DNA from: Symmetrospora coprosmae | Lineage: Eukaryota > Basidiomycota > Cystobasidiomycetes > Symmetrosporaceae | Length of the DNA stretch: 64,000 nucleotides | Direction: 5' to 3' | Assembly: GCA_008802785.1 (NCBI GenBank) | Contig: VUYT01000047.1 | Coordinates: 1-64,000, forward strand | Shown: piece after piece, positions 1 through 58,340 of the stretch | Position numbering within the stretch: position 1 is the first letter of the stretch | Layout: every line of letters begins with the position of its first letter | Notes under the pieces: generated by a model | The model's database searches: none | Seen by the model: only the letters and a program-made list of their open reading frames with translations | What the model was told of the DNA's origin: nothing | Translations under genes and position numbers: made by a program

Positions 1-285
1 CCAATGCTGCTCAGTATGATTTTGAGAAGCGCGGAGCAGTGGTAGTCCCTAACAGGGAAGGGCCTGGATCGCCCGGTGATTTCGGTCTTAGCCTGGCTAG
101 AGCGATAATTATTTCTACCAAAACCGCTCCCGCGCGTTGTACTTTTGTTCGGACCTCTCATCCCAATTCCACTGCAGTATCACCACACCTTTTGCTCACG
201 CTCTTTTCTCGATACACCCGCGCACACGCACACACGCGCGCTCAGCAGCACTGCCATCAGCCTGCACCAGCGAGGGAGGGAGGCC
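1..285. other. Intergenic, upstream of first gene
   Basis: No coding signal that I can support. The last part is pyrimidine-rich and carries a CA/CG dinucleotide-rich stretch around 218-240 just before the ATG at 286. This is probably promoter and 5' leader of the gene that follows. Confidence 0.4.
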
Positions 286-6721: not shown

Positions 6722-6843
6722 GTTCGTGGATGATGGTGTATGGAGGAATGGATGAAGCAAGCCGGACCTGTTCTCTAGCTCAGGGACGAGCACGGCTCTT
6801 CTGCCTTCGGCCATCCAGCTGGTATAGCATACAGCTCTCAGAA

Positions 6844-8264
6844 ATGGTGCAGGAAACATCGCACACCGAGGTCTCGACCCTCAAGTACAGGGACGTCGAC
6901 TACATTGTCTTTTCGGACTTTGACGGTGGGCAGCTGCTCTGCAAAACCCGTGGAAGAGGGGACGCGCTCTCGTCGACGTGCAGAGAGGGGCTGACCTCCC
7001 TGGAACTGGCTCGCTCGCTCGCTCACAGGGACGATAACGACCGAGGTGCGAGGTGGAACATGGCACGAAGGCAATGTGTATCCCTTCTGACCCGCAGTGC
7101 CCGTGCTTGCGCTCCTGCCGGCGATCCCTGCTCCAGGACAGGTACGCCAGGGACACGCCCCAGGACCGACACCGGACAACTTGCGCTGACTGTGCGCACA
7201 CGCTCTTGTACCACCTCAGCAATGACCACATGACGGACAACCTCGGGTTCGGCCGCGAGCGAAGGCAAGCACTCAACCAGGACGTCCTGCACAACCGGAC
7301 CACTTTCCGCGACTCGTTCCGGGAGATGCTGGCGTCAGTCTCCGAGACGACCAGCTTCGAAGACTGCCAGCGCATCTTGAAGAAGAGTGCGTGTATCAGT
7401 TTGCCCGCAGTGCCCATTGGCCTTCACAGCGCACATGACTCCGCCCTATCTGATGCAACCAACCGCCACTCGCAGACATCAAGCTTGACCCAGGCTTCAA
7501 GGAGTTCTTCGGTGAGCCTGACCTTTCAGTTGTCTTTCAAGTGTGCACCAAGCTGAGAGCAGCCTCTTACTCGACGCTCGCACAGACTGGGCCAAGAGCG
7601 CAAAGGTGCCCGTGGTGATTGTCTCATCCGGCATGGTACCCATCATCCGCTCGATCCTCGAGAACCTGCTCGGCCCCGAGGATGCCAGCCAGATGGAGAT
7701 CATTGCGAACGAGGTCGACGTCAAGCCCGATGGCAAGTTTGAGATTGTGTTCCGGCATCCAGAGTCCGGCTTTGGGCACGACAAGTCCAAGGCTCTGCGT
7801 ATCTACAAAAATCTCGAAGGAAAGAGGCCGACCATCTTTTTCTGCGGCGATGGCGTCAGCGACATGTGAGTGCCTTCGCCCTCGCCATCGCGCTCGTGCG
7901 GCGGGCGAGTTCGCGCCCTGATGTCAGGCTGCGTCACTGGCAGGTCGGCCGCTGGCGAGTCGGACGTGCTCTTCTGCAAGCTCCTACCTAGCAGCAACAA
8001 CGACCTGGCCAAGCACTGCCTGAAGGAGTCGGTCCCATTCGTGCCCTTTTACACTTTCACCGAGGTGCGCATGACACGCGGGTCTTCCGCTGCTTGCGCC
8101 CGTTGCGGGAGTTGCGCGCGGAAATGTCATAGCTCACTGGTCGCCTGTTATTCCCTGCATGTGTACAGGTCAAGAAGCACTGCCAAGAGGTCGTTGAAGG
8201 TCGGCAGTCTGTGCAGGAGCTGGTAGCAGCAGGACAAAAGGCCGCGTCTGAGGCCGACATCTAG
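6844..8264 (+). CDS. PYP1: HAD phosphatase of the Pyp1 (YNL010W) family
   Basis: The 267-residue product follows yeast Pyp1, a HAD phosphatase acting on sugar-alcohol phosphates (a metabolite-repair enzyme). HAD motif I is FSDFDGTITTEDSND, motif II VVIVSSG, then GFGHDKS and motif IV FCGDGVSD. Eight exons keep frame throughout: 6844-6925, 7029-7045, 7137-7141, 7220-7386, 7476-7511, 7586-7865, 7944-8064 and 8169-8264. The second and third exons are only 17 and 5 nt. They are needed because the family's DGTxTxEDSND block is otherwise missing, and each is flanked by AG and GT. Downstream, LDPGF and KSVPF-like blocks also match. The ATG at 6844 gives MVQETSHTEV before the catalytic motif; length is close to the yeast protein. 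Confidence 0.93.
7137..7141 (+). other. 5-nt micro-exon of the Pyp1-like gene
   Basis: The bases gacag sit between CCAG and GTACGC. With the exon ending at 7045 and the exon starting at 7220 they encode the DS of EDSND, which is near-invariant in this phosphatase family. Confidence 0.8.
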
Positions 8265-8500: not shown

Positions 8501-11500
8501 ATGGCAGACAGAAAAGCACGCCTGGCCAAGCTCGAGGAGCTCAAGCGAGCGCGGTCCGGCGAAGGGAGCCGCTCCAAGGAATACAAGGTGCGTCGGCCGG
8601 TCGGGAGATGGGCGCGTACATGGGCGACCGACAGCGAGGAAGGGAGACAGCAGCAGCAGCAAGGCGGAGCACAGTCACTGATACATGCTGCCTATGCTGC
8701 TCATTGCGGTCTGCAGGAAGCTCGCAGCAACAAGATCTACGATGAGGTGGACGATGAAGAGTACCGCACCGTCGTCCGGGCGCGTCTGGACGAGGACGAC
8801 TTTATCGAGGACGACGGATGCGAGGGCTACATCGACAACGGCGAGGACGACTGGGACAGACGGCGTAGAGGCAGCGACGAGGAAGATGACGAGGATGACA
8901 GCGACGACGGAGGTCAGTCCATACCCTGCTGTGATGGGCTGCTCCCGCTGACGCGCGACGCGTACCGCCGGCCTTTGTCCCTTCCCCTCCCCTCACCTAT
9001 CTCCGCAGGCCGCAAGAAGAAGAAAGGCAAGAAGGCGGCGACTGGCAAGAATGGCAAAGAGAATGGCAATGGTTCTGCTGCTGGTGGCCCCGCCGCTGGC
9101 AAAGCGCCTAACGGCAAGGCAAAGAAGCCGCTGCCCCCACCTCGGCCCATCCTCGCCAACCCGTACAAGAAGGAGATTTCGGCAGCAAAGGAGGATGACT
9201 TTATGGCAGACCTGCTTGGCGACCTCGATGCTGCCCCTCGCTCTATCTCCCCACCGCTCAAGAAGCGCAAAGCCCTCACCTCGTCTGCCCAATTCAGTGG
9301 GAGCGGCAGCCTGAACGGCCTGCGCTCGTCACACGCAGCAAGCAGCAGCAGCTTGATGTCTTCTGACCCAGTCACCGGCCCAGAGTCTTCGCAATATGCC
9401 GGAGATACGGGCCCATCCTCAGACGGACTCTTTGACGTCGATGCAGACACGAGCCGGACGTCCAAGAAGGCCAGGGTGTCTGGAGCGGAGGACAAGCTCG
9501 ACAGCCTCGCCTTCGATCTCGATCTCGACAACGATGACTTCAACAACACTTTTGACGGCGACGATATGGCCATGGAGCTCTTTCCCGAGATGCGGGACAA
9601 GGACAAGAAGGCCTCTGGCGCGGCAAAGGCAGGCGCGGAGGACGACGAGGAGGACGACGAGATGCAGGTCAAGCAGGTCAAGAAAGCCAAGCCAGGCGGC
9701 AAGCGGCAGCAGCTCGTCAACTCCACATCGACGAAAGTCAAGCCTGCTTCCGCGCTGGTGGTCAAGGCGCAGGAGCTGGACGAGTACAAGCCTGCCTCGC
9801 TCGACATCAAGCCCGTCACGACCCTGCAGGACAAGAAGAAGGACAGGGGAATGGACTGGCAGCTGGCAGCTGCGCAAGTCACGCTCGAGGGCGACGAGAA
9901 TGGAACTGCGCCCATTGCAGGGAGCGAGGATGTCGATATCTTCTCCGCTGCCCCGACGGCACGCTCGACAAAGAAGATCAAGGCACCTTCCGCGGGAGGT
10001 GGCTCGCTCAAGACTGCCAAAGTCCAGGCGCTTGAGGAGGACGGCTCGGTCCGCTTTTACTGGCTGGACTATGTCGAGACGAACGGGGTCCTCCATTTCA
10101 TCGGCAAGGTCTTCGACAAAGAGACCAAGAAATACGTCTCAAGCTGCGTGACGGTGGAAGGCATCGACCGGAACCTCTTTGTGCTCCCGAGACAGAGCAT
10201 GTCGGATGGGAGGTCGACCATAAGCAGGCTAACACAAGGCGCGGCAGCTGACGATCGTGCTTCCCCCCACAGAGTACGGCAACGAGCTCGACCCCCCTTC
10301 TGAAGAGGAAGTCTATGACGACTTTGGCGAAGTGGCATCGAAGGCTGGCATCAAAGACTGGATCGGAAGCCACGTCCAGCGGAAATACGCTTTCGAGCTC
10401 CCGGACGTTCCGCAAGGGGAGGCCAGCTACATGAAGGTGCTCTACTCATACGACCAGCCTCAGCTGCCGTTCAATTGCTCGGGAAAGACGTTCAGCAGGG
10501 TCTTCGGAACAAACACATCCGCTTTTGAGCTGTTTGTTCTCAAGCGCAAGATTATGGGCCCGTGCTGGCTCAATATCCAGGAGCCAGAGTTCAGCGACAA
10601 GGCGGTGAGCAATCTCTGGACTCCAATGACGAGCAAGAGCTGACTCGCTCTCATCGACAGATCTCGTGGTGCAAGCTGGAGATTAACGTCAGCGACCCGA
10701 AGACGGTCAAGCCCTTTTCCGAGAACGACGAATCCGCGCCGAAGGAGATGCCACCTCTAACCGTCATGTCACTTTCCGCGCGGAGCATTGTCAACCACCA
10801 AGCGAACAAGAAGGAGATTGTCTCTACGTGTGCTCGAGTGTGGCAAGACAGTAGGTCGTCGCGATTATGGCACGGAGAGATCGGTTGCGGCGCAAAGTCA
10901 GACCACTGACACCGTTGCGCCACTTGGCAGTGAACATCGATGACCCTACGCCCATTGAGCGGCAACCGTGTGCGGTTCACACGTCCGTTCGCCCATTACT
11001 GGGCGACTACCCCGCCGGCTTTGACGGCCTGGCCAAGTCTCAAAAGAGCAAGATCCTCATGGCCCAGAACGAGCGACACCTCCTTAACCACCTGCTGCTC
11101 ATCATCCAGAAGGTCGATCCGGACGTCATTGTCGGGCACGAGTTCTCGAGTGTCCTGCTCGACGTGCTTCTGCACCGCTTGCGAGACCTAAAAGCAGACC
11201 ACTACTCGCGGGTTGGACGCTTCAGACGCATGAAGTGGCCTCGGCTACGTGCAGGCATGAACTCGGGCCTGCTGAGCGGCCGACTTGTGTGCGACCTCGC
11301 TAGCGAGGGCTCGAAGGTGAGCTGCCAGCCTGTCCCAAGGGTGCTATATCTGAGCTGACGTCCTGACTCGACTATTCAGAGCATGATTCAATCTACCACT
11401 TGGTCGCTCACCGAGATGTGCCAGTCGATCCTGAAGATTGACCGCGAGGACATTGACCCAGACGACACGCCAGACTACTTTGACAAGTATGCGCCTCCGA

Positions 11501-14134
11501 CCAAGCTGCTCCACTTCATTCGGCATTGCGAAGCCGACTCGTACTTCCAGATGGCGCTGGCTTTCAAGGTGCAGCTGCTTCCGCTCACCCGACAGCTGTG
11601 CAATCTGGCTGGGAACTCGTGGAGCAAGACGCTCAACGGAGGGAGGGCCGAACGAAACGAGTACATTCTGCTGCACGAGTTCCACCGGCAGAAGTACGTA
11701 TGCCCGGACAAGATCTCGCGCTGGGAGCGAACGCAAATTGCGCGCACAGCTGCGGCAGATCCGGAGGATGACGACGGCGCAGTGCTAGCAGGCGACGAGA
11801 CCGAAGCAAAGGGCACGGCAGCGGGGATGGGTAAGAAGGGGACTGCGAAGAAGGACAAGTACAAAGGTGGTCTCGTCTTTGACCCAAAGCGCGGGCTGTG
11901 GGACAAGTACGTCCTCGTCATGGACTTTAATTCGCTCTACCCGTCCATCATTCAAGAGTTCAACATCGACTTTACAACCATTGAGCGGCATAGCGGAGGA
12001 GGAGAAGCGGACGAGGCCGGAGACGATGTCGACAAGATCCCAGAGATTCCGGGGAGTGATGTCAAGCAGGGTGTTCTTCCAAGACTTATCGCAACGCTCG
12101 TCAACAGGCGTAAGCAGGTCAAGAGTCTGATGAAGGACAGATCGGCCTCGCAGGCCAAGCAGTTGCAGGTGCGTCCCCGTTGGGGGTGGGACTAGTTCCG
12201 GAACGCATGGCTGACAATGCCATGCGCTCACAGTGGGACATCAAGCAGAAGGCACTAAAGCTCACAGCCAACTCCATGTACGGATGTCTCGGCTTCGAAG
12301 GGTCCCGCTTCTACGCAAGACCTTTAGCCGCCTTGACGACCTTCAAGGGTCGAGAAATTCTGACAAATACAAAGGAGCTGGCAGAGAGCCTGCAACTGGA
12401 TGTGAGTAGGCCTGTCGGAATGCGCAGATGCCGCTGTAAGCTGATACAGCACCCTGCCTGCAGGTCATCTACGGAGACACGGATTCCGTCATGATCAACA
12501 CCAATGCCTCGGACCTTAAAGAGGCCAACCAGACCGGTAACGAGTTCAAGAAGCTCGTGAACGACCGATATCGCCTGCTCGAGATCGACATCGACGCCAT
12601 CTTCCAGCGCATGCTCTTGCTGCAGAAGAAGAAGTATGCCGCGCTCAAGGTTGAGGACAGCGGCGAGAGCACGATGGAAATCAAGGGTCTTGACATGAAG
12701 CGGCGAGAATTCTGCCCGTTGAGCAAGACCGTTTCTGGATACGTGCTCAAGCAAATACTTAGCGGCGAGGCAACAGAGCACGTCGTCGAGCATATCCACG
12801 ATTACCTCGAGTCCATCGGCAAGCGCGTCCGCGCTGGCGAGATCGACCTCGACGAGTTCATCATCCTGAAGAGGCTCGGCAAGAATCCACAGGACTACCC
12901 GGATGCAAAGTCGCAGCCGCACGTCCAGGTCGCTCTGCGGATGCAGGCCAAGGGCCAGACCGTCAAGGCGGGCGACGTCATTCCTTACGTCTTCTGTCTC
13001 GCCGAGGACGGCATCACTGCCAAGTCTGCGAAGGCAGACCGCGCTTTCCACCCGGACGATCTGCGGAAGAAGGACACTACGCTCAAGATCGGTGAGTGTG
13101 AAAGCCTGGACGTGCTCGCAATGTGCGTGTGCTGACGGATCGGGGTAACGCATAATGAAGACTACGACTTCTACCTCTCTCTGCAAGTCCTGCCGCCAAC
13201 CGAGCGTCTTTGCGATCCCATCGAAGGCACCGAGCGCGCTCGTCTGGCAGAATGCCTCGGTCTCGACCCGAATCGCTTCCGCACGCAGCAGACGACGATC
13301 GAGAGCGAGCGCGAGTTCCATAGCTTCGAATCGCAGATTTCGGACGCGCAACGCTTTGCGCTATGCGAGCCGCTCACCCTGCGGTGCAGGTCTTGCAAGC
13401 ATGAGCAGACCTTTGGCGGGCTCCTTGAGAACTCGGTGCGTGCTTGCTATCTGGGTTTGCGGCTGCGTCAAAATATATCTCACATCTTGTCCTTTTCGCC
13501 CGTCTCAGAATGGCATGCTCAACGGCAGCGGTCTGCATTGCACCAAGATCGACTGCGCTGCTTGGCTCTCGCCTGCTTCGGTGCAGATCCAGGTTGAGAA
13601 CCAGGTCCGTGCCGCCATCTCGAAATTCTACGAGTCGTGGCTTGTCTGCGATGACCAGTCTTGCGGAAACCGGACGCGCATGCTTGGCATGGTTGGACGA
13701 CGCTGTCTGAAGCCCGAATGCCGTGGCAAGATGCATAATGAGGTAAGTCAGGTGACGGAAGAAGTACTTTGCGGCTTCAAATGCTGATCTCGCTCCCTCA
13801 CCATGTGTACTCAGTACTCGGACTCGCGGCTGTACAACCAGATGCTCTACTTCCAGAGCCTATTCGACACCGAAAAGGCGCGCTCAAAGACGCTCGGCAC
13901 ACCTCGAGCTGGTAAGTTTGCCCTTGTTTGGCCCTTCAACGAAGGTCATGCTGATGACGCGCCGTGCCCTCTACGCCTGCAGAGGAGATCCAAGCACTGG
14001 CTGTGCAGCACAAGGACTCGTTCTTGCAGATCAACGCTTCGATAGAAGACTACATGAAGCGGTGCGGCAGGCGCTACGTCTCTCTGGAGAGCGTTTTTTC
14101 GTACATGAAAGTCGCTTCGGCCCCACCGGCGTGA
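8501..14134 (+). CDS. POL1: DNA polymerase alpha catalytic subunit
   Basis: Replicative B-family polymerase that extends primase RNA primers. The start is the ATG at 8501 ([18 protein letters not shown]), the usual Pol alpha N-terminus. An acidic, Lys-rich N-terminal region (about 8717-9990) follows, then the β-rich/exonuclease-like fold ([19 protein letters not shown] near 10060). Polymerase motifs: [16 protein letters not shown] (11920, motif A), [13 protein letters not shown] (12260, motif B) and VIYGDTDSV (12465, motif C with the two catalytic Asp). The C-terminus has the two Cys clusters expected for zinc and for binding the B subunit: [10 protein letters not shown] (13388) and CDDQSCGN with CLKPEC (13650-13725). 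Around ten short introns interrupt it. Length is about 1,450 residues, normal for the family. It lies 237 bp after the Pyp1 gene on the same strand. Confidence 0.97.
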
Positions 14135-43059: not shown

Positions 43060-45488
43060 CTAGTTCTCGACGTACTGCACATTCTTGGTGTCGAGCTTCG
43101 GCATGGGCCTGTACTCGGTGCGCTTCTGCTTCTCCAGGACGGAGATGTGAACGAGGGCTTGGTTGAAGACGAACCGGGGCTTGCCGAGGTGAGGCCTGCA
43201 TTGTCAGAAACACACACGAGTCAGCACATGAGCTACTACGCCGCAGCTAATGGCACTCACCAGTAGGTGGTGTACCACTTGTCACTGTACTCGATCTGGT
43301 ACGTTTGCTTGAAAGGGAGGAACTCGAGGAAGATCCACCAGAGCGTGAGGAGCGTGGCGAAGATGCTCCAGTTGCCCCAGGGGCTCTTGAAGTTCCAGAG
43401 TTCGTTCTTGATTGGCACAAAGATGTCGGTGTCGATGCCCTTGACGACGACTTCGAATGGCTGCAGACTGGGCTTAAACTTGATGGGAATCCCAGCATAC
43501 TCGGAGGCGAACTCGCAGTGACGGATCATCCAGTCGCTGAGAAGGCAAACATCAGACACTCAGGTCTAGCGACGAATCAGGCACGCGGAGCGAGGCAGTC
43601 CACTGACAGCGTAATGTTGGCGAGGCCGGTGTCCTTGTCGTTCGAGCGGGACCCGCCTCCGACGTCCGAGTGCGAGCCGGCGAACCAGACCTGCGAGAAG
43701 ATAGCCCGTATCAGTCGCCATTCGACCACATCGCAGTACACGGGAGTCTGATTCACCTCTCGAACCTTGTCCAGACCGCCCGTGTCATCGCGCGCGTCGG
43801 CGACAGCGGGATCGCGCAGCTCTCGGTCAAAGCGCTCTCCTGCCTTCTGCTTCGGCTCAGGCTGAGCAGCAGGGACGTGGTAGTAGCTGAGAGGGAACTG
43901 TAGCGACATGCAGTGCAGCATGTCAGTCAGACGGCAACTGAGAGTCAAGCCGGATGTCCCTACCTTGACTCGCTGCTCGTCGAGAGCCATTGCCTGACGG
44001 AAGATGCGGATGGACCTGTCGGCGAAGGGAAGGTGGGGGCCTCCAATGTAGCCGATGCTTCCAACCGTCTCTGTGGGCGAGTATGAGGCTCATGTCAGCA
44101 TCGGGCCGGACTGCGGTGAATACCCCAAGATTCGCAGAGGCGCACCCCAGACGCCGACAAAGTCGATAATGACATCGCGCGAGAAGCGTTTCTTGAAGCT
44201 GGCAGCAGCCTCGACGGTGATCGGCAGCTCGGGGTTCCAGAGCCTGTACGTCCTCTGTGACAAGGGCAGGACCAATCAAAGGTTGTCAGCTACTGGCGAT
44301 GTCGTGGCTCATGTAGCATCGTGGACCTACGTAAGCCATCGGGGTGCTCTCGAGGTTGCCTTTCTCCATTAGACCGACCTTCTCGAGCATTCCAGCCAGC
44401 GCGCGAGCAGTGTAGGCTGGCATTGAAGGGACCGCATGAAATTTACGGACGTTAGCCGTGACGAGCGCGACAACAGGGAGGAGAGCTGACATACCGCCTC
44501 GAGAGAAGCCGAACTGAGTGATGATTGAACGGTGGGTCAGCCCGAGGTCTGACCGCAGACGATTCGTCAAGCAATGGACCTACCAGGCAGATCTTGTCGC
44601 CGGGCATCCAGTTCTCAGCAATGAATTGGTAGCCCGAGGTGATGTGGCCGCCAATGTACCAAGCTGTGGCCTGGACGGCAGAAGGGAACAATCAGTATTC
44701 AGACGCGGTTCAAGCCTGTGTGAGCGGGCGGAACCTCACGAGATCGAGGCCTTGAGCAAGCGCTGCGGTGATGGGACTCAGGATAGACGGAGGGCTGTAG
44801 CAGCTAATGCCAGGCCTATCGGAGCATGTCTGTCAGTGGTGAGCCTTGTGAGTGCATCAAGACCGCAGCGACCCTACTGGTAGTAGCAGATCTGCTTGGA
44901 CGTGTCGTCTTTGTCGAGAGCTCCGAAGAACCTGACAACGTTGGTGACGAATCTGGGGGCAGTGATGTACGCGCTTTAGCTATTGTCGCACGAGCAGACG
45001 GAAAAAGAGAACGTGGAGAAGGGACTGACGGGTTGAATTCCATCGCGGTACCTGGAACAGGTGTCATGACAGCACCGCAGTCAGCGGTGCTCAACACGAG
45101 CACCCTCAAGACATGGCAATGAGCTCACCATCGAAGCACAAGACCAGCGTCCTGCCTGAAGAAGGAGGCGAAGGCTCGGACGGTTTCGTCTCCTCGGATG
45201 GCTTCTCGTCGGACGGTTGGGTAGCAACTGCGTCGGGTCCAGGCTGCGGGAGTCCACGCCAGCATCAAGGGCCGGCTCAACGTTCGCTTCACCGAATTCG
45301 GTAGGCTTGGAGAGAGAGTTGGCTTTGGCGTTGGCGGGCTTGCGCGACGCGGGACCGGACGTCGGCTTTGTTGATGGAGCCCAGCTGCTGCTCGCCGGCT
45401 TGGGAGAGGCTGCAGACGCTTTCGCAGGGGAAGAGGGTGGAGGATACTCGGCTGCAGAGTCGGCGACGGCGACGGCTGGAGCGGACAT
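43060..45488 (-). CDS. DUF2235 (Tle1-like alpha/beta hydrolase) protein
   Basis: Starts MSAPAVAVADSAAEYPPPSS. A Pro/Ala/Ser-rich leader is followed by SGRTLVLCFDG (45150), the usual entry to the DUF2235 hydrolase domain shared with bacterial Tle1 phospholipases. In order: FVTNVVRFFGAL, KQICYYQRPGISCYSPPS, AWYIGGHITSGYQFIAENW, the nucleophile elbow FGFSRGGMSALLPV (about 44510), DFVGVWGAPL (catalytic Asp region), ETVGSIGYIGG, and VWFAGSHSDVGGGSRS with the catalytic His (about 43670). A hydrophobic segment FATLLTLWWIFLEFLPF (about 43345) suggests membrane association. It ends MPKLDTKNVQYVEN. There are roughly eleven short exons. Substrate unknown. A decayed copy lies directly downstream. Confidence 0.88.
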
Positions 45489-55290: not shown

Positions 55291-56563
55291 CTAGTAACGA
55301 GGGCTGCGCTGCCAGAAGCGGCGCTTCTCCTGCATTGGGGTGCCGTAGGTATCGACTGGCACGACAGGGTTGCCGTAGGCATCGACAGCAGTGGGATTGC
55401 CGTAGGTACTGTTCGACGAGATCCGATCCGCCTCCTTGTTCCTCCTCTTCTCCTTGCGGGCGTGGCGTGAGCCGAAGCAGACTGTGAACGCGGCCAAGAG
55501 GAGGAGGATGGTAGCGGCGACGACCTGGATGCGGGAACGACGAAGTCAGGCCTAGAACTCCGCGGAACTTCGAAAGGGGCCGAGGCACGTACCATCCAGT
55601 AGGCATTGGAGAGCGACGCAGGGCTGCCTGCGACATCTCGGTTGATGCGGTTACGGGCGACGACAAAGAGGATGGAATCGCAGATCAAGGCGACCAGGCA
55701 GACCAGGAAAGCGAAGAATCTGGGGACAGCATTCGGCTCGTCAGCATCGTTGTCCGACCTAGGATGCGTATGTAGGTGAGGGAAGACCAACGAGACGAGA
55801 CTGCCGATTGTGTCGAGGATGACGTTGGTGGTGAGCGAGATGAGAATGGCAATGAGGGTGATGGCGGCCGCGACTGTAATATGAAAGCGTCAGCTAATTG
55901 GCCAGAAGGCTTTGAACCATAGTTTCCGTGTTGCGCTTACTAGGGTGCAGAATCAGGGTGTACGTCAGGTTGCGGACGACCGAGCCGCTGATGTCGCCCA
56001 GTTGACCGAATTGCTCGACGGCAGCTTCGGCATTGTATCCCAGGCGAGCACCAGAGGACTGCCAGTCGCCGCCGACGGCTTGGACGACGTAGCCCCAGTT
56101 ACCGAAGCGCAGCTGCACGCCATTGGTCTCGGCCTCGAGGAAGCTTTGGTCGGAAGGCGAGGCAGGTCAGCATGTGCTCGACGGGAACCTTCAGCATTCT
56201 CCAATGTGCGTCAGCTCACTAGATGGCCCGCCATGTCGGCGCAGACACGCTGACTGTTGTGTAGGGAAGCAAATGCAAGGTCAGACGCTGCTCCCGAGGA
56301 GACGCGCAGACGGCAGAAGGCGGCTCACCGAAAATGAGGAGGACGAATGCGGCGAAGGCGAAGAAGACGCTGTGGGAAGGAAATGGTGAGGGGAGAAGCG
56401 CGTGAGTCAGTCGCCGGAGAAGCCTGCGAACGCGTCGACGGCAGAAGGGTGAGTCAGTCTTACCCAGGACCTGCAGTAAAAGAAGCATGAGAGCGCGAAT
56501 CAGTATCTGCCAAGATGGCCTGCCTTCTCCATGGCGGTACTCACCCTGTCGAAGAATGCTCAT
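55291..56563 (-). CDS. PalI/Sur7-like four-helix membrane protein (copy 1)
   Basis: Plasma-membrane protein of the fungal PalI/Rim9/Sur7 group. Exon 1 encodes MSILRQ (ATG at 56563). A 7-nt micro-exon (56464-56470) then gives GPG, and the next exon starts VFFAFAAFVLLIF, the first membrane helix. The extracellular loop has RFGNWGYVVQAVGGDW and RLGYNAEAAVEQFG, the family's G-W-GY...LGY pattern. Three more helices follow: ITLIAILISLTTNVILDTIG, FFAFLVCLVALICDSILFVVA and VAATILLLLAAFTVCFGS. A cytosolic tail has YGNP/YGTP repeats and ends FWQRSPRY. Members act in ambient pH sensing or cortical domains. A tandem paralogue lies upstream at 57252-58340. Confidence 0.85.
56464..56470 (-). other. 7-nt micro-exon of PalI-like copy 1
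   Basis: GTCCTGG between CTGCAG and GTAAGA; joins MSILRQ-G to VFF to give LRQGPGVFF. Confidence 0.8.
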
Positions 56564-57251: not shown

Positions 57252-58340
57252 TCAGTACTTCCTTCTCTGCCACCAGTGAGTCTTCTCCGACATGGTCGGC
57301 TCCCCCGCGACCGAGCTGCGCCTGGCCGCTGTGCTCTCCCTCCGCTTTGCTCTGCGGGCGTGGCAGGAGCCGAAGCAGACCGTGAGGGCGGCGAGGAAGA
57401 GCAGGATTGTGGCAGCAACAGCGAGCCAGAACGCGTTCGAAAGGTGGGCGGGATCGCCTGGGAGGATGTTGTTGATGCGGCGACGAGCTGTAACGTAAAG
57501 CGCGGCCGAGCAGGCGAGTGCAACGGCAGACACGAGGAAGGCGAGGAAGCTGAACGTGATGGGGCTGAAAGCTTCAGCGCGATCTTTCCATGCGACTTCT
57601 GCAGCAGCACATGGACTCACGCGATGACGCTGCCGATGATATCGAGGATGACCGAAGTGGACAGGGATACCAGGATAGCAAGAAGCGCGAGGAAAGCCGC
57701 GATCGGATAGAGGACGTTGGCGTACGTCAAGCCCTTGATGACTGCTCCAGCGAGGTTGGCGCCATCGCCAAAGTTGTCGAGGAAGTCGACGCCAGTCGAG
57801 GGGATGACATCCGTCACTTGCTCGAGGCCCCACCCGAGGCGGGTGGAGGATTTGCGCCAGCCGTCTGCACCGATGCGGTAGATGTAGCCGTAGGAACCGA
57901 TGCGCAGCTCGAAAGGTCCAGGACCGTCGACCTCAAGGAAGCTGTGGGCGGTGAATGCAAGCGTGATCAGTCTGGATCACTCGAACACGCTCGACTCAAG
58001 AGGCACTCACTAGAAAGTCCTCGTGACCGGCGCCGAGATGCTGTGAAATCGTGTGCGAATCAGTGTGTGTCTCAGGCGCCAACGGGCTTGTACTCGAGCT
58101 ATGACTGACCTGATGAGGATGAGTAGCACGAAAGCGGCAAACAGGAAGAAGACGCTGTATAGAGGAAGTAGAACCCGTCAGACTAGGTGTGTCTCCACGA
58201 AGCGGCCATTTGCATTGAGGGAGGCAGCATACCCTGGGCCTGAAAGCAATGCGCCTGAGTTCAGCGAGAACCAAACGCAGCAGCGGCCAAAGTGCGCGAG
58301 AGAGCGTTCAGAACTCACCTTGTCGCAGAAGGTTGACCAT
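57252..58340 (-). CDS. PalI/Sur7-like four-helix membrane protein (copy 2)
   Basis: Same architecture as the downstream copy. Exon 1 MVNLLRQ (ATG at 58340), a 7-nt micro-exon (58233-58239), then VFFLFAAFVLLILI. The loop block LRIGSYGYIYRIGADGWRKS and LGWGLEQVTDVIPSTGVDFLDNFG is followed by ANVLYPIAAFLALLAILVSLSTSVILDIIGSVI, a third helix FLAFLVSAVALACSAALYVTA with RRRINNILPGDPAHLSNAFW, and AVAATILLFLAALTVCFGSCH. The tail is basic and ends HWWQRRKY. The second half matches copy 1 closely (RINRDVAGSPASLSNAYW there), so the two arose by tandem duplication. They differ in the extracellular loop and the tail. Confidence 0.87.
58233..58239 (-). other. 7-nt micro-exon of PalI-like copy 2
   Basis: GCCCAGG between TTTCAG and GTATGC; gives LRQGPGVFF at the same codon position and phase as in copy 1. 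Confidence 0.8.

Follow-up and report, generated by a model that had tools for sequence, protein, structure and literature searches.

The window, by which we mean the whole stretch of 64,000 nt that was analysed, is contig 41 of an assembly of 20.05 Mb in 77 contigs. Its plus strand carries a gene of eight exons (Table 1) whose product is related to HAD-type phosphatases. Rebuilt letter by letter, the gene has GT-AG at every junction and a coding sequence of 804 nt, i.e. 267 codons plus the stop, so that the exon borders, the reading frame and the 267-residue product put forward in an earlier note on this DNA all hold. If a micro-exon is defined as an internal exon of at most 30 nt between two introns, this gene model contains two consecutive ones, of 17 and 5 nt. 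The gene structure of the host suggests an intron-rich fungus, with roughly five introns predicted per gene, a median length of 76 nt for the predicted introns, and branch points of the CTGAC type. Directly downstream of the phosphatase gene, at 8501-14134 (+), we predicted a gene with 13 exons and 1568 codons including the stop, which, judging from its sequence features, presumably resembles the DNA polymerase alpha catalytic subunit. A search for RNA families and tRNAs across the window returned none.

Table 1. Exons, introns and competing acceptor of the phosphatase gene (positions in the window)
Feature	Position	Strand	Remarks
Exon 1, 82 nt	6844..6925	+	start codon to FSDFDG; codon 28 split, phase 1
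Intron 1, 103 nt	6926..7028	+	GTGGGC...CACAG; branch point CTGAC, A at 6994
Micro-exon 2, 17 nt	7029..7045	+	remainder of G28, then T-I-T-T-E
Intron 2, 91 nt	7046..7136	+	GTGCGA...CTCCAG; branch A at 7090, 46 nt before AG
Rival acceptor CAG	7095..7097	+	7 nt past branch A 7090; in-frame 44-nt exon 7098-7141 if used
Micro-exon 3, 5 nt, GACAG	7137..7141	+	D34 and two bases of S35
Intron 3, 78 nt	7142..7219	+	GTACGC...CTCAG; branch point CTGAC, A at 7189
Exon 4, 167 nt	7220..7386	+	begins with last base of S35
Exon 5, 36 nt	7476..7511	+	
Exon 6, 280 nt	7586..7865	+	contains S116, K169, G190, D191, D195
Exon 7, 121 nt	7944..8064	+	
Exon 8, 96 nt	8169..8264	+	includes stop codon

Against TIGR01489 (MtnX-like HAD-IB phosphatase) the 267-residue product scored 135.2 bits, above the cut-off of 81.55, and against the Pfam HAD model 86.1 bits. 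It is not MtnX proper: its score with the MtnX equivalog TIGR03333 was 70.5 bits, far under the cut-off of 303.2. The top match among solved structures was 2fea, a 2-hydroxy-3-keto-5-methylthiopentenyl-1-phosphate phosphatase. With a hand-entered sequence for S. cerevisiae Pyp1/YNL010W, which reads DFDGTVTLEDSND at the corresponding place, the product shares 45% identity over 245 aligned positions. Pyp1 is described as a sugar alcohol phosphatase (PMC8466642); we use the name "Pyp1-like" for the product as a lead only.

Conservation was assessed in an alignment of eight rows, made up of the 267-residue protein and seven bacterial relatives, two of which are nearly identical. These were drawn from a plasmid collection with 43 bacterial relatives; eight were taken among the 20 matches listed, and one was dropped for a stop in its range. 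Relatives were also sought in viral contigs and in bacterial and archaeal genome contigs, where none were found. The residues that define the HAD motifs (DxDGT, Ser, Lys and GDxxxD) are kept throughout, with D25, D27, G28, T29, S116, K169, G190, D191 and D195 invariant in 8/8 rows. The assignment of the split region to HAD motif I is supported. Within the motif, all eight rows share D25, F26, D27, G28, T29, I30 and D34, and S35, N36 and D37 vary. The block had earlier been called near-invariant, a description that suits D25 to I30 and D34 and does not extend to S35, N36 and D37. Bases 1 to 3 of the 5-nt exon form the D34 codon. In alignments with PDB entries, D25 to D34 could be placed gap-free on 2fea (DFDGTITMND) and on phosphoserine phosphatase (DVDSTVIREE); phmmer set D34 opposite the second Glu of DVDSTVIREE in phosphoserine phosphatase 1nnl. 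Asp34 probably corresponds to the acid that binds the substrate in the phosphoserine phosphatase fold.

Splice paths through this region were enumerated with GT/GC-AG borders, at most two internal exons, introns of at least 45 nt and donors from position 6900 onward. This gave 21,598 paths, 4,674 of them open to the stop; 50 contained DxDGT, and in three DxDGT was followed by DSND. The three are the model with the 17- and 5-nt exons, a model with a 44-nt exon (7098-7141) and one with a 47-nt second exon plus the same 5-nt exon. The motif spacing of the aligned relatives is retained in the first of these only, and the proposal that just 7029-7045 and 7137-7141 rebuild motif I is thereby upheld, as the sole path with family spacing among those enumerated. 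The same model reached the highest TIGR01489 score of five open variants (135.2 bits), followed by a variant with another 5-nt exon at 7098-7102 (126.6), the 47-nt plus 5-nt combination (120.3), the 44-nt exon (118.2) and retention of intron 3 (116.7). Skipping of the 5-nt exon would leave a product of 34 residues, skipping of the 17-nt exon one of 30 and skipping of both one of 31; the earlier expectation is supported in that loss of either micro-exon would ruin the protein.

For gene prediction we used a purpose-written finder that combines a periodic coding model, matrices for donors, acceptors and branch points, and intron lengths. It was trained on the window plus 200 kb of contig 11 (264 kb), starting from the splice sites of the phosphatase gene, and returned all eight exons of that gene exactly at the lengths listed in Table 1. 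In a leave-out run the phosphatase gene was masked and a hand-entered generic consensus served as the start, yielding 69 genes and 388 introns; this finder still picked the 17- and 5-nt exons. The earlier note expected most gene predictors to overlook them, but this small one recovered both, whether or not the gene was masked. In the same run, exon 1 began at 6835 and was linked to doubtful upstream exons, and therefore the start at 6844 rests on the gene-included run and on the protein. We then barred single sites in the leave-out run. Barring acceptor 7136 cost 5.7 nats and produced the 44-nt exon, and barring 7136 and 7097 together cost 10.5 nats; with 7028 barred, another 5-nt exon replaced the 17-nt one at a cost of 7.7 nats. 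Barring donor 7142 cost merely 2.0 nats and led to retention of intron 3 after the 5-nt exon, a form that is also open (293 aa), the 2.0 nats being a difference that ignores the protein evidence. The micro-exons have no coding signal of their own (log-odds 0.0 and 0.3 under the gene-included model).

An alternative reading of the third exon is that it comprises 44 nt and uses the CAG at 7095-7097, which would place a 13-residue insert within motif I of a 280-residue protein. Such an exon is in frame and open, it was the leave-out finder's choice once 7136 was barred, and its acceptor is nearly equal in score to that of the 5-nt exon (5.33 for 7097 vs 5.36 for 7136). However, the insert disrupts a spacing conserved in 8/8 rows and costs the product 17 bits against TIGR01489, and the 39 additional nt have a coding log-odds of -3.2 under the gene-included model. 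The 44-nt exon would further need an acceptor no more than 8 nt from the branch A: the one good branch point of intron 2 is a CTGAC whose A at 7090 lies 7 nt before the end of this CAG and 46 nt before that of CAG 7134-7136. In other genes, 328 introns with a CTGA or CTAA branch point were predicted by models that included the phosphatase gene in training. An AG at most 8 nt past the branch A was skipped in 74 of them, the AG being part of a CAG or TAG in 36, and used in two; a branch-to-AG distance of 40-52 nt occurred in 29. The leave-out set gave two of 331 for distances of at most 8 nt and 39 of 331 for at least 46 nt; in both sets the introns are predicted and the branch point is the best one 6-65 nt upstream (4-70 nt in the leave-out set), a choice biased against very short distances. 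A simple rule suggested by these figures is that no acceptor is used in the first 8 nt or so past the branch A, an exclusion zone that would settle the choice of the 5-nt over the 44-nt exon. We regard the longer exon as very improbable.

Two other explanations concern the status of the gene and of its 5-nt exon. The gene could be a decaying copy, in which the micro-exons patch a broken motif by chance. When 200,000 random introns were generated by a first-order Markov model from 7052-7207 (the 5-nt exon itself included), a 5-nt AG..GT cassette of any kind arose at a rate of 0.135 per intron region, which would speak for chance, but one coding for Asp-Ser at just 0.000475, so that a bare 5-nt cassette is cheap by chance and one with the right residues is not. 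A chance patch is also hard to reconcile with eight open exons, with retained HAD core residues and with a gene that is the only close match within its genome; we consider this explanation extremely improbable. Decoy cassettes in introns proper were of lower quality: 34 predicted single introns of at least 120 nt contained 74 AG-(1..10)-GT cassettes, 13 of them of 5 nt, all with combined site scores below 9.5, compared with about 10.1 for the cassette at 7137-7141 under models that had the phosphatase gene in their training. Alternatively, inclusion of the 5-nt exon could be regulated, with skipping, or a zero-length exon at the AG/GT 7141/7142, causing a frameshift and a stop after 34 residues and thereby switching the enzyme off. 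The truncation that follows skipping fits such a role, the acceptor at 7141 scores 3.12, and Xlr2 of Trichoderma virens contains a 20-nt micro-exon that works as a switch (PMC11121469). Against regulation, we saw no pointer to it in the sequence, the flanking site scores are ordinary, and neither 17 nor 5 nt is a multiple of three, the usual case for micro-exons (PMC11121469). Regulated inclusion is in our view unlikely. A bolder version holds that the paired micro-exons form a splicing-controlled active-site switch, in which the 5-nt exon is lost in some condition and the 34-residue product is destroyed, with an 11-nt exon in a second HAD gene (see below) likewise controlled; this we rate as very unlikely.

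We are confident that the window holds an intact Pyp1/MtnX-like HAD-IB phosphatase gene with a motif I split by three ordinary introns that are most likely recognised by intron definition, and on the strength of the sequence the 17- and 5-nt exons are most likely real. According to this proposal, three ordinary introns would happen to sit 17 and 5 nt apart within motif I, and each would most likely be recognised as its own unit of 78-103 nt with a 5' splice site, a CTGAC branch point and a 3' AG. If recognition proceeds intron by intron, the 5-nt exon needs none of its own. Two neighbouring introns would be removed successively and not together, since the splicing complexes on either side of a 5-nt exon would clash. 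The AG 7 nt past the branch A of intron 2 would be too near, and the next AG, 46 nt off, would be used. Intron definition in fission yeast is reportedly the subject of work by Romfo from 2000.

The splice sites around very small exons are ordinary. Introns beside exons of at most 12 nt had a median site score of 11.3 (n=25) vs 11.4 for the others (n=370; p=0.72) and were slightly longer (median 82 vs 76 nt, p=0.004), and the site scores of introns 2 and 3 fall at the 26th and 45th percentile among predicted introns, all under models trained with the phosphatase gene included. With ordinary flanking sites, plain intron definition would suffice, and nothing in these scores calls for a special enhancer; recognition of the introns one by one is the simplest account. 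We infer that the junctions are used in vivo, that the introns are removed in turn and that the micro-exons are included constitutively.

Small internal exons were predicted in several other genes. The 264 kb contain 89 predicted genes with 357 predicted internal exons, of which 38 have at most 30 nt, 16 at most 15, ten at most 10 and four at most 6 nt; eight of the 89 genes, the phosphatase gene included, have an internal exon of at most 10 nt. Outside support exists for some, but not all, of the other predicted micro-exons. One of those counted, a 1-nt exon at 56545, was rejected as an artefact: a probable first exon of 19 nt, starting at 56563, ends in this base. Several others fall within conserved regions. 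In a Rac-type GTPase, a 12-nt exon (G000:C11:187631-187642) codes for NAFP, which is identical there to Rac1 (PDB 1i4d). The predicted start of this GTPase is unlike Rac before residue 16, and its first exons are probably mispredicted. A 9-nt exon of a Ure2-like transferase encodes HFF, compared with HFN in the best match and VFF in the second. Consecutive 6-nt exons were predicted in a YVC1/TRPY-type channel (G000:C11:175460-175465 and 175543-175548), covering residues 495-499 within a Pfam match at 256-533, and exons of 8 and 12 nt in a Pom33 protein, covering residues 51-57 of a Pfam match at 13-263.

Two tandem SUR7/PalI-like genes of the window have a common 7-nt exon, GTCCTGG at 56464-56470 (-) and GCCCAGG at 58233-58239 (-), at the start of the Pfam match. 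The two copies differ at just two third codon positions, both synonymous, and their flanking introns are unlike in length and sequence. We read the pair as an indication that selection preserves exons of such small size here. A gene at 43060-45488 (-) of the window, with a T6SS Tle1-like catalytic domain (PF09994, 240 bits), has 14 predicted exons, three of them of at most 27 nt; two of its small exons code for GTAMEFNP (after FD) and for FGFSRGA inside the domain match.

Two further HAD-like genes were inspected. The second HAD gene (L003; contig G000:C30, minus strand of the locus) matches PF06888 Put_Phosphatase with 173.9 bits and lies outside the training set. Its motif I, too, is interrupted by a micro-exon, predicted at 11 nt; the motif reads FDFDF/SFAD/NDTD over predicted exons of 38, 11 and 29 nt, and its intron positions differ from those of the phosphatase gene of the window. 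In a third HAD-like gene (L004), DFDGT lies within a single exon of 633 nt. Of 31 micro-exons of at most 24 nt, 14 lie in the second tenth of their coding sequence, a concentration that may account for the splitting of N-terminal motifs like HAD motif I. Tiny exons of the kind predicted here are not special in this genome; the phosphatase gene is one case among several.

The earlier note had also placed a 5-nt exon near the lower limit for the spliceosome. Such an exon is not exceptional, given exons down to 1 bp in Cryptococcus neoformans (PMC3990503) and of 5 nt in Drosophila Ubx (PMC8042270). The Cryptococcus study, whose authors call such exons hard to identify automatically, concerns a likewise intron-rich basidiomycete with short introns and 5.7 introns per gene; its exons come from RNA-seq, whereas ours are predicted from sequence, and its median intron is 55 nt long compared with 76 nt predicted here (PMC3990503). 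P450 genes of Phanerochaete chrysosporium have micro-exons of 2-10 residues and a shortest exon of 6 bp (PMC1184071). They share with our gene micro-exons in an enzyme gene with small introns, the difference being that here two consecutive ones fall inside motif I of a HAD phosphatase. Xlr2 of T. virens shares with our gene a fungal micro-exon that codes for part of a functional domain, and its 20-nt exon was absent from the annotated gene model; that exon responds to glucose, whereas the phosphatase micro-exons are without a sign of regulation in the sequence. The Trichoderma authors state that functional micro-exons were previously undescribed in filamentous fungi and that their automatic detection is difficult (PMC11121469). 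A literature search on micro-exons in Ustilago or Rhodosporidium returned nothing useful. The predicted phosphatase micro-exons resemble the published fungal cases, and the mechanism is most likely an ordinary one for an intron-rich fungus.

For annotation, the eight genes with a predicted internal exon of at most 10 nt are a warning; they include, besides the phosphatase, the YVC1-type channel, the Ure2-like transferase, Pom33 and the two SUR7 genes. For the biology of splicing, motif I of the phosphatase offers a clean example of how a spliceosome that uses intron definition could tolerate exons of nearly any size.
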